IMG/VR virus record: IMGVR_UViG_3300021185_001145
Coordinates: 1 to 64,000 of that record
Source: a virus
Direction: 5' to 3' (one strand)
DNA: 64,000 nt
The translations under genes and the position numbers were made by a program. This document shows, in pieces, positions 8,728-12,891 of the stretch. Positions within the stretch are counted from its first letter, which is position 1; the number at the start of each line of letters is the position of its first letter. The notes beneath the pieces are model-generated. The model was not told the DNA's origin, made no database searches, and saw only the letters and a list, made by a program, of their open reading frames with translations.

Positions 8728-9408
8728 TTATTTTATAGCAATCGCACCCACAAACAGATGATTTTGCCAAAATGTCTGAACACTGCTAAAACCAGCATAT
8801 TCAAGCATTTCATTCAATTCAGACCATGTATTTGGCTTTAACATGTTGCGTAACGTCTGTTCTTTGTTCATAATATCTTCTGCGTTGAAACTCTCACGCT
8901 TATGGTCATAGAACATGAATGTCAGTATATCTTGCACTTTAGGAGAGCAAGAATATGTCTTCTCTGCAAAGATAAACGCACCACCCGGATTGAGTGCTTC
9001 ATATACGTTATTCAACACTTCTTGTCTATCTTTGCGTGGCATGAACTGTAGTGTAAAGATTGAAGTGACTAAAGACGCATTGTGCATATGAACATCACGC
9101 ACATCTTCGAAACGCAATTCTAGGTCGTCAACTTCATGCTTACGCATTCTCTCATCCATCGCTTCTTTGAAGCCATCTGCCATTTCAAAACCGACATAAT
9201 GAGCATGTGGCGCAAATGTATTTTGCTCAATCATTGCACCTAGTGTCTTGCCTGTAGAACAACCCAAATCATATACGTTTGTATCGTCCTCAACAAAATA
9301 TTTTGACATCTTAACAATGTCATCGTGTAGTACAGAATACCCACGAATTGATTGGTCTATGTGATTATCGAAACCCTCTTCACGGTGTGCAAAAGTAAAA
9401 TCAGCCAT
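8728..9408 (-). CDS. CmoA-like carboxy-SAM synthase / SAM-dependent methyltransferase-fold protein
   Basis: 226 residues. It follows E. coli CmoA along most of its length: SIRGY (20-24), motif I VYDLGCSTG (45-53), NASLVTSIFTLQFMP (110-124), LNPGGAFIFAEK (139-150), YDHKRESF (167-174) and a C-terminal FWQNHLFVGAIAIK. CmoA converts SAM and prephenate to carboxy-SAM, which CmoB uses for tRNA wobble uridine; no CmoB is visible here. The ATG overlaps the stop of the DNA methyltransferase by 8 bases, so the two are translationally coupled. By eye, the position of E. coli Arg199 (carboxylate contact) reads Glu (K-E-Q for K-R-S), with an Arg one helical turn later, so substrate must be tested. A plain methyltransferase is the alternative. 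Confidence 0.8.
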   Translation of the reverse strand: MADFTFAHREEGFDNHIDQSIRGYSVLHDDIVKMSKYFVEDDTNVYDLGCSTGKTLGAMIEQNTFAPHAHYVGFEMADGFKEAMDERMRKHEVDDLELRFEDVRDVHMHNASLVTSIFTLQFMPRKDRQEVLNNVYEALNPGGAFIFAEKTYSCSPKVQDILTFMFYDHKRESFNAEDIMNKEQTLRNMLKPNTWSELNEMLEYAGFSSVQTFWQNHLFVGAIAIK

Positions 9409-10540
9409 TATTGTATCCCTTCAAAACGTTTTCATAAATGCTAGTTGCAACTGCTTTATACATCAATGGAGCAACTGCACGACCAAGACGCTCTACCTGA
9501 GCATCAAATTCACCTGTCAAAATAAAGTCTTCTGGGAAACCCATCAGACGTTTACACTCTTTAATAGTCAACTTACGATTTGCTTCTGGGTGAAATACAC
9601 CAGACATTCCTCGCTTCTGACCTTGCTGAGTTAGTGTTGGAGATGGCATATCTGGACAAGGGCGTATCATGTTGAAACAACTTGCCTTTGGATTCCATTC
9701 TCTAAACTGTGGGTCACTCGGTTTTGTATGTTTCTTTGGGTTGAACGGAAGAGGTGTGATAAACTTCTTCTGATATGAACCCTCAACAAAATCAAGTAAC
9801 ATCTGAACTTCTTCTTCATCATTCTCAATATCTGCTAGTGCTTCACGCATTGAAATATGCTTGTCGATTGTAGGGGCAGGAAAGATGTTATGCAAGTTTA
9901 AAAAAGACAAACCAACTTTATCTGCTACATCTTCACGCACACAAATAAAGATTGTACGTTCTCTTGCTTGAGGTACGCCATAGTTTGCACCATTCAAAAC
10001 TTCGTATGTAACATTGTAACCAATTGCCTCAAACGCATTGATAAACGCATTCAGTTTACTTTTTGCTTCACCAAATGTGATACCCTTGACGTTCTCTGCA
10101 ACAATTACTTTCGGTTGAATACCTTCTGCAATACGAATGAATTCATAGAACAAATCTTCGATTGCAACTTGCTTCTTTCCGTCAGAGTAACTTTTCTCTT
10201 TACCCCAACCTTTTTCTCGCTTACCAGCAACGGAGAAAGCAGAACAAGGGGGAGACCCATCAAGTATGTCGAGTTCGCCCTTTTGTACTCCTGCCATGCT
10301 AAGGAAGTCTTCTGCGCTGTATTTCTTAATGTCATCAACTAGAACTTTCGTATCGGGAAAGTTTGCAGTGTATGTTTCAACAGCGGCTTCTACAAACTCA
10401 TTAATCAGTAATATGTCTGAACCTGCTAGACGATACCCCAATGAAGAACCGCCACCACCAGCAAAACAACTGATAGTAGTGAACTTCTTTTGAGATGAAA
10501 GTGCTTTCACATCATCAACATTATATTTTTCATATCTCAT
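9401..10540 (-). CDS. C5-cytosine DNA methyltransferase with Asn-to-Arg change in motif X (candidate carboxymethyltransferase)
   Basis: 379 residues with the full M.HhaI-type motif series: motif I ISCFAGGGGSSLGYRLAG (23-40), catalytic motif IV SPPCSAFS (96-103, nucleophile C99), motif VI AENVKGI (148-154), motif VIII QARERTIFI (191-199), motif IX LTIKECKRLMGFPEDF (324-339) and motif X. Motif X reads ERLGRAVAPLM, with Arg354 (codon 9481-9479) where the family has Asn in GNAV/GNSV. The equivalent Asn in M.MpeI, when changed to Lys, permits carboxy-SAM use. It has its own promoter (10573-10601) flanked by direct repeats, and is coupled to the CmoA-like gene. No restriction endonuclease is adjacent, so it modifies phage DNA, probably for protection. 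Confidence 0.93.
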   Translation of the reverse strand: MRYEKYNVDDVKALSSQKKFTTISCFAGGGGSSLGYRLAGSDILLINEFVEAAVETYTANFPDTKVLVDDIKKYSAEDFLSMAGVQKGELDILDGSPPCSAFSVAGKREKGWGKEKSYSDGKKQVAIEDLFYEFIRIAEGIQPKVIVAENVKGITFGEAKSKLNAFINAFEAIGYNVTYEVLNGANYGVPQARERTIFICVREDVADKVGLSFLNLHNIFPAPTIDKHISMREALADIENDEEEVQMLLDFVEGSYQKKFITPLPFNPKKHTKPSDPQFREWNPKASCFNMIRPCPDMPSPTLTQQGQKRGMSGVFHPEANRKLTIKECKRLMGFPEDFILTGEFDAQVERLGRAVAPLMYKAVATSIYENVLKGYNNG

Positions 10541-10547
10541 ATTTTAT

Positions 10548-10596
10548 ACACTTTTCTACGGTTATTTAAAGTATAGTAACACACTTTTCTGCGGTT
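10548..10596 (-). repeat. Pair of 16-bp direct repeats flanking the methyltransferase promoter
   Basis: ACACTTTTCTACGGTT (10548-10563) and ACACTTTTCTGCGGTT (10581-10596) differ at one base and are 33 bp apart, about three helical turns. One fills the -35/-10 spacer and the other covers the transcribed leader before ATG 10540. This looks like a paired operator. Confidence 0.6.
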
Positions 10597-10601
10597 GTCA
10601 A
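10573..10601 (-). promoter_or_regulatory. Sigma70-type promoter for the DNA methyltransferase gene
   Basis: Minus strand TTGACA (10601-10596), 17-bp spacer, TACTAT (10578-10573). The -35 overlaps the end of the upstream asparagine-synthetase-like gene. Start near 10566, 26 nt before the ATG. Confidence 0.75.
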
Positions 10602-11410
10602 GCAAAAAGTGAAGGAGTTGCAGAATAATTTACATAGTCTCTAACCAAGTCCATGGTTCTACCCCTATTGCGATAGTTCAATTCTTTGTCTTCAAGCAAC
10701 TGTTCGAAATACTCAGGAATACCAGCAACCAACTGTAGATTAGCATGTTTACGCTTTTTGGGTAGTTTTTCGAATTCTTCATATGCTTCGATAATTGGTG
10801 CTTTCTGATATGGCTTGTTAAAGAAATCGTGGTCGTACCGCATCATCCACTCTTTCACACTTTCACGCACATAAGGTGCGACTAAGTTCGCTTCTATCTC
10901 TTCACACAACTGTTCTTGCTGTAGAATGCCAGCAGGATTCTCTGCACCAAAGTAATCATTGCGAAACTTATCAAACAACTCTTTCGTATGCTTGAAGTGA
11001 ATGTTTGCACGTTTTGATACACCATACCAACCATCTGCGGCAACACCAGACAATACATGCTTCTCTTTAATATGAGGATAAACATAAAGAAACGGGAATG
11101 TACATTCTACATGTGTCTTCTTCTTACAGTCATAGTAACGCATCAGACGCAAGAAATCATCTTTCACATTATTGACTGGTACATCAATCTCATGGTGATT
11201 CCAACCATATATCTCAGCCGCTTCTTTCGCCGCTAAACTATCGACTGTTTCTTGACCATTCACATACATCGTATATGTGTGTACGTTTTTTCCTAAACGC
11301 ATTGCAGAAAATGCACAAGTCAAACTATCGACACCACCAGACATTAAAACAGCAACGTCTTTTCCAGGTGCTTCATCTTCTACTATTTTTGTTATTAAAT
11401 CATCAATCAT
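10598..11410 (-). CDS. Asparagine-synthetase-like ATP-dependent PP-loop protein
   Basis: 270 residues. PP-loop SGGVDS at 24-29 binds ATP pyrophosphate, and LSGVAADGWYG (120-130) corresponds to the LSGxGADExFGGY block of the C-terminal domain of AsnB. There is no N-terminal glutaminase domain, so it would need ammonia or another amine as nucleophile. AsnB-type domains adenylate a carboxylate and then form an amide. Its start overlaps the dCMP deaminase stop (ATGA), and the carboxy-SAM-linked methyltransferase pair follows directly. I infer a possible role amidating a carboxymethylated base. Other PP-loop roles such as tRNA or cofactor modification are not excluded. Confidence 0.75.
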   Translation of the reverse strand: MIDDLITKIVEDEAPGKDVAVLMSGGVDSLTCAFSAMRLGKNVHTYTMYVNGQETVDSLAAKEAAEIYGWNHHEIDVPVNNVKDDFLRLMRYYDCKKKTHVECTFPFLYVYPHIKEKHVLSGVAADGWYGVSKRANIHFKHTKELFDKFRNDYFGAENPAGILQQEQLCEEIEANLVAPYVRESVKEWMMRYDHDFFNKPYQKAPIIEAYEEFEKLPKKRKHANLQLVAGIPEYFEQLLEDKELNYRNRGRTMDLVRDYVNYSATPSLFA

Positions 11411-12207: not shown

Positions 12208-12891
12208 TTAAATAAGTCTATGAATAGCGTACTGTTTACCAAGACGCTTGTTTCGTTTTTTCATTGCCATGTGTTTCTGTAAAGGTGAAACGAACTTCCA
12301 GAAAGGTTTACCTCTACTGAGTGCATAATTCTGAATGTAGTATCTACTCCATTCGTGTTGTACTCTTTCTCTATGCTCCTGATTAGAAACATCATAATAG
12401 ATAATGTCTGCAAATACTGGACGCTCAATATTCAAATACAACGCAGGATAACTTGCAGAAATCTCTCTACCTTTATGACCCTCATCAGATAACGCTTTAA
12501 TTTTAGAATTGATGAATGTCTCATACTCTGGTTCATCATCTGCACGTTGTTCAACAGGTTTTGGGTTTACAATGATAAAGAAATCATAATTGACACCCAC
12601 TTGTGATGCATGAATTGATGGACCGCTTCTGTTCTTTGACATTCTGAACAATACTTCAGCGAGTAAAGATGCTTCCATAACAAAAACAAAACCATCTTCC
12701 ATTTTCAATACAGGTGGTTTATCAAAAGGGTAATGAGCGCATGTTGTAAATGGCTTCATATTCTTTTTATCCAAATCAGTCTTAAAAGAAAAATACTTCA
12801 TAAGTTTCTCTACGTCAGGAACTTGTTGAACACTCTTCATCATTTCAGCGACTTCTTTACGCTCTTCTTTTACTTGTTCTACTTCACTCAT
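12208..12891 (-). CDS. Peptide-deformylase-like protein lacking catalytic residues
   Basis: 227 residues. The three deformylase motifs can be placed in order: GPSIHASQVGV (90-100) for GLAAPQVG, REISASYPALYLNIERP (142-158) for EGCLSxPGxxxxVxRP, and QHEWSRYYIQ (178-187) for QHExDHLxG. The zinc cysteine of EGCLS is absent and the second histidine of HExxH is replaced (HEWSR), so metal binding and deformylation are unlikely. Active deformylases occur in marine T4-like phages, so this appears to be a relative whose active site has been lost, perhaps kept for binding. Start overlaps gp46 stop (ATGA). Family assignment is by eye and moderately sure. Confidence 0.6.
   Translation of the reverse strand: MSEVEQVKEERKEVAEMMKSVQQVPDVEKLMKYFSFKTDLDKKNMKPFTTCAHYPFDKPPVLKMEDGFVFVMEASLLAEVLFRMSKNRSGPSIHASQVGVNYDFFIIVNPKPVEQRADDEPEYETFINSKIKALSDEGHKGREISASYPALYLNIERPVFADIIYYDVSNQEHRERVQHEWSRYYIQNYALSRGKPFWKFVSPLQKHMAMKKRNKRLGKQYAIHRLI

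Follow-up and report, generated by a model that had tools for sequence, protein, structure and literature searches.

Architecture and genomic context of the locus

The window analysed here covers bases 1 to 64,000 of an IMG/VR record of 83,590 bases that is itself a fragment, and carries three adjacent minus-strand genes encoding homologues of the amide ligase CmoY, the cytosine methyltransferase-family enzyme CmoX, and the carboxy-SAM synthase CmoA, transcribed in the order CmoY, CmoX, CmoA (Table 1). None of the three reading frames is interrupted and their catalytic residues are conserved, a gap of 57 bases lies between the CmoY stop and the CmoX start, and a dCMP-deaminase-like gene overlaps the CmoY start by 4 bases. 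An earlier note, made from the letters of this DNA, had placed three neighboring genes here, with the methyltransferase and CmoA genes sharing 8 bases; the open reading frames confirm the former on the minus strand, and the sharing is real. That note also reported no CmoB in the window, and this absence extends to the 83,590-base record (a fragment), in which TIGR00452 found no match. A ParBc-domain partner, common in other CmoX loci, was likewise searched for and not found in the 83,590-base record.

Table 1 Features of the cassette and of its source record (window positions unless stated otherwise)
Feature	Coordinates	Strand	Evidence or detail
cmoA, carboxy-SAM synthase homologue, 226 aa, last cassette gene	8728..9408	minus	TIGR00740, PHROG 4752, PDB, S-B43 identity
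cmoX, DNA cytosine C5-carboxymethyltransferase homologue, 379 aa	9401..10540	minus	PF00145, 8YF3, S-B43 identity
cmoY, AMP-forming amide ligase homologue, 270 aa	10598..11410	minus	PF00733, S-B43 identity, predicted fold
8-base overlap, cmoX end and cmoA start	9401..9408	minus	ORF coordinates; same overlap in close relatives L003-L007
tmRNA, permuted, alphaproteobacterial-type	L083:11581-11962 = record 75,581-75,962	minus	tag ANDNYMPEMALAA

The record belongs to a marine T4-like phage, and the strand of the cassette also encodes a sliding clamp, clamp loader, RegA, late sigma factor, and UvsY, along with the major head protein, prohead protease, portal, tail sheath, and terminase. Among isolates, the major head protein is nearest to that of the Methylophilales phage Melnitz (66%), followed by those of other T4-like phages including pelagiphages. 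Judging by the type of its tmRNA, the phage may infect an alphaproteobacterium, although Melnitz, which infects OM43, has a two-piece tmRNA closer to those of another host group (PMC9004378). Separately, three genes of the tail-tube family (PHROG 45) occur in this one phage (window 18868-19356, 25348-25869, and 60042-60683), one of them between UvsY and the major head protein, and a divergent peptide deformylase homologue (window 12208-12891; PF01327, E=6e-11) sits between recombination genes and the cassette. Membership of the cassette in a defence system was considered and rejected, as PADLOC matches for CmoX were to cytosine-methyltransferase models only (type II, DISARM, and Druantia types), and those for CmoA and CmoY were weak and generic.

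Sequence and structural features of the three enzymes

A corresponding trio from the Synechococcus phage S-B43 was published by Yang et al. (Nat Commun, 7 Dec 2025; PMC12783734; MN018232; PDB 8YF3), and serves as the main reference below. The window CmoA is 54% identical to its S-B43 counterpart and 58% identical to that of the Synechococcus phage S-CRM01. Its best NCBIfam model is TIGR00740 (residues 2-226, E=9e-36), matched with 124 bits and hence below the 193-bit cut-off; it also matches PHROG 4752, labelled tRNA methyltransferase, and the PDB sequences 4GEK (E=5e-27) and 1IM8 (E=5e-29). Structure prediction (pLDDT 84.6) gives a fold most similar to the crystal structures of CmoA in 4IWN, 4GEK, and 1IM8, with TM ~0.86. 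In E. coli CmoA, Arg199 is the only contact to the carboxylate of carboxy-SAM (Cx-SAM; PMC4482062). Positions mapped by alignment, with numbering offset from the 4GEK chain, revealed that the E. coli R199/E203 pair is swapped to Glu/Arg in the window protein: the R199 position holds Glu (window E183) in all aligned phage CmoA sequences, the active S-B43 enzyme included, except those of PaBG and TurkishDelight, while four residues beyond, where E. coli has Glu (E203), all but PaBG and Mcat8 hold Arg (window R187). Going by this swap, which is not mentioned in the S-B43 paper (PMC12783734), the carboxylate-binding arginine of phage CmoA appears to have moved by one helical turn.

CmoX matches PF00145 (E=4e-59) and TIGR00675 (above its cut-off), and its best PDB match is 8YF3, the S-B43 CmoX with Cx-SAM (E=1e-111), compared with 8e-26 for M.HaeIII. 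It is 55% identical to S-B43 CmoX and 50% identical to S-CRM01 CmoX; its SPPC motif (S96-P97-P98-C99) aligns with S95-C98 of the former, and C99, F26, E48, F49, D70, and R354 (equivalent to R350) are all kept in a residue comparison that left out the ENV-motif glutamate column, so that the nucleophile, the adenosine-binding residues, and the carboxylate-binding arginine are retained. The last of these residues is of particular weight, as R350 makes S-B43 CmoX carboxy-SAM specific (PMC12783734). At the R354 position, Arg was found in 81/81 CmoX sequences lying beside CmoA (79 IMG/VR loci, S-B43, and S-CRM01), in contrast to Asn in M.HaeIII (motif X) and Leu in the Melnitz methyltransferase, and therefore the identity of this residue tracks CmoA in these alignments. 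Asn as the control state is taken from the alignment with M.HaeIII and from PMC12783734; an HhaI sequence served as outgroup in the alignment and tree, and no claim depends on it alone. A FastTree phylogeny placed the window CmoX inside the Arg clade with loci L003-L007 (support 0.996) and Melnitz outside it. Sequence similarity to S-B43 is uneven along the protein, with 64% identity over residues 1-215 and 29% over residues 216-300, which hold the target-recognition region, so the GC target of S-B43, though the motif expected by analogy, need not carry over to the window phage.

CmoY contains an asparagine-synthetase-type domain with the PP-loop SGGVDS at 24-29, and matches PF00733 (E=3e-15) in its synthetase half only, the profile search finding no N-terminal glutaminase domain. 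Its predicted structure (pLDDT 87.8) most resembles beta-lactam synthetase and asparagine synthetase B, both of which activate a carboxylate by adenylation before amide formation. Against S-B43 CmoY, the window protein shows 49% identity, the same domain layout, and long common motifs (C.KKTH.ECTFPFLYV and SG..ADG.YGVSK). S-B43 CmoY also has no glutaminase domain, whereas a second ligase cluster has one (PMC12783734; here locus L077). The missing glutaminase domain thus makes ammonia from glutamine a less likely amine than an amino acid, and by analogy with S-B43 glycine is the one most likely joined by the window CmoY.

Linkage of the genes across IMG/VR loci and distant phages

Relatives of the CmoA-CmoX-CmoY system have already been surveyed in IMG/VR (PMC12783734). 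Our own linkage survey fetched 80 IMG/VR loci with CmoA alone as the query, of which 79 encode CmoX. CmoY, counted only where 2.2 kb or more of upstream sequence was available (50 loci), was present in 41. The single-strand order CmoY-CmoX-CmoA recurs in contigs down to ~57% CmoA identity, and relatives at 80-94% identity keep the frames of all three genes. Such linkage of CmoX (79/80), together with the recurring order, indicates that the adjacency is not chance. Even in very distant phages (Mcat8, TurkishDelight, and PaBG), an Arg-type methyltransferase is paired with a CmoA-like gene. Within the lineage of the window phage, CmoX and CmoA, mostly with CmoY, travel together.

Some loci hold other genes at the usual place of CmoY. 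Directly before CmoX, two of them (L034:4081-4866 and L045:4081-4866) encode a 262-aa P-loop kinase-like protein with weak AAA_18, AAA_33, and APS_kinase matches, for which a different hypermodification step is possible. A third (L077:3455-4858) encodes a 468-aa asparagine synthetase with a glutaminase domain, whose architecture suggests a simple carboxamide as the product.

A probable cytosine hypermodification pathway and its alternatives

Taken together, the three genes very probably form a cassette for hypermodification of DNA cytosine, a CmoA-CmoX-CmoY system orthologous to the S-B43 one and performing the same reactions. The observations on this phage are its gene set and gene order, the conservation of key residues, and the predicted folds; the reactions and final base are known from orthologues. 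CmoA would use the CO2 of host prephenate to convert SAM into carboxy-SAM, a product that S-B43 CmoA makes with tenfold the kcat of the E. coli enzyme (PMC12783734). With Arg354 holding the cofactor carboxylate, CmoX would then attack C6 of the target cytosine through Cys99 and move the carboxymethyl group to C5; S-B43 CmoX generates 5-carboxymethyl-dC in GC sites, and its wild type accepts Cx-SAM only, not SAM (PMC12783734). Finally, CmoY would use ATP to adenylate the DNA-borne carboxylate, after which AMP would be displaced by an amine (glycine being the most likely) to form the amide, as S-B43 CmoY ligates glycine to 5-carboxymethyl-dC with ATP (PMC12783734). The S-B43 virion DNA contains 5-glycylcarboxymethyl-dC by LC-MS, at ~75% of GC sites (PMC12783734). 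For the phage, the likely benefit would be protection against host nucleases.

This is the route that the earlier note had drawn from the sequence alone, and in its essentials the route is supported: the synthesis of carboxy-SAM by the CmoA-like protein, the carboxymethylation of cytosine C5 by the methyltransferase (R354 being kept here), and the activation and amidation of the carboxylate by the asparagine-synthetase-like enzyme have each been demonstrated for the S-B43 orthologues (PMC12783734), to which the window CmoA and CmoY are related at the identities given above. Its description of natural cytosine carboxymethylation as a candidate is superseded, since the chemistry was already published in December 2025.

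The alternative that survives best, though we consider it unlikely, is that carboxymethylation proceeds as proposed and CmoY joins an amine other than glycine, so that the final base is not 5gcxmC. An identity of just 49% between the two CmoY proteins leaves room for this, as does the replacement of CmoY by a glutaminase-fused synthetase (L077) or a P-loop kinase (L034) in nearby lineages, whereas the domain layout and long motifs held in common with S-B43 CmoY argue for glycine.

Less probable still is that the cassette has no activity or is used only in part, with modification incomplete and restriction evaded mainly by the loss of target sites. Counted over the 83,590-base record against expectations derived from trinucleotide counts, AGCT (0 vs 165 expected) and GATC (0 vs 292) are absent, and GGCC (2 vs 71), CCGG (11 vs 73), and CGCG (16 vs 120) are depleted; the relatives G002, G003, and G007 also have zero AGCT and GATC, whereas S-B43, S-CRM01, and G005 do not. 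This loss suggests that restriction in the host is strong. As GATC lacks a GC dinucleotide, its loss is irrelevant to CmoX. The absence of AGCT and near-absence of GGCC, however, are difficult to reconcile with complete protection at all GC sites. They suggest that these two sequences are left at least partly exposed, whether through incomplete modification or because CmoX does not target them. Against an idle cassette stand the intact frames and catalytic residues and their retention in relatives at 80-94% identity; further, modification of only ~75% of GC sites in S-B43 shows that modification and avoidance can coexist. An ordinary 5-methylcytosine enzyme beside a CmoA that serves tRNA cmo5U with a host CmoB is very improbable, and we rejected tRNA modification as the main role of CmoA: the PHROG 4752 label would suit it and a phage CmoB would be unnecessary if the host had one, but the record encodes no CmoB, CmoX adjoins CmoA in nearly every locus, every CmoA-linked homologue has Arg rather than Asn in motif X, and wild-type S-B43 CmoX takes Cx-SAM alone (PMC12783734).

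Returning to the S-B43-like pathway, a broader joint reading can be offered tentatively, and is in our view rather doubtful as a whole. Under it, CmoX of this clade would target a motif other than GC, the Glu/Arg swap in CmoA would be a functional rewiring whose looser product binding supplies cofactor for genome-wide modification, and the lineages that replace CmoY (e.g., with the P-loop kinase of L034 and L045) might make further undescribed derivatives of 5-carboxymethylcytosine.

Compared with known systems, the window cassette most closely resembles that of S-B43, which has the same three adjacent genes on one strand and a CmoX with identical residues at the cofactor, catalytic, and carboxylate-binding positions. 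The two differ in gene order (Y-X-A in the window, A-Y-X in S-B43) and probably in host group, given the tmRNA type and the capsid relative Melnitz. The carboxymethylcytosine pathway thus appears intact in a lineage of marine T4-like phages for which the tmRNA type and capsid relatives suggest heterotrophic bacterial hosts rather than cyanobacteria. In S-CRM01 (HQ615693), the CmoA and CmoX genes also overlap, in the order A-X, and no CmoY homologue was detected in that phage. The bacterial CmoA/CmoB pathway to tRNA cmo5U has the same CmoA fold and, by inference, the same carboxy-SAM chemistry; it is set apart by CmoB, absent from our record, and by its acceptor, which here would be DNA cytosine C5. 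In M.MpeI, the basic residue of the N374K variant, at the position corresponding to R350, admits Cx-SAM (PMC12783734), in agreement with the engineered enzyme that the earlier note had cited; that variant is engineered and has a CG target, whereas the window CmoX naturally has Arg there.

The related T4-like phage Melnitz provides a negative control. Its C5-methyltransferase is homologous to the window CmoX (46% identity) and has Leu at the Arg354 position, no CmoA match was found in Melnitz, and in Melnitz-3 (L084:4001-6185) the Leu-type methyltransferase is followed by a Tet_JBP-domain oxygenase annotated as hypothetical. A RimK-like ATP-grasp gene also lies 3 kb before this methyltransferase. 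The Melnitz pathway, as read from these genes, is probably 5-methylcytosine formation followed by TET/JBP-type oxidation. The two phages therefore offer a natural contrast for the residue of cofactor choice, with Arg accompanying CmoA in one and Leu accompanying a TET-like oxygenase in the other.
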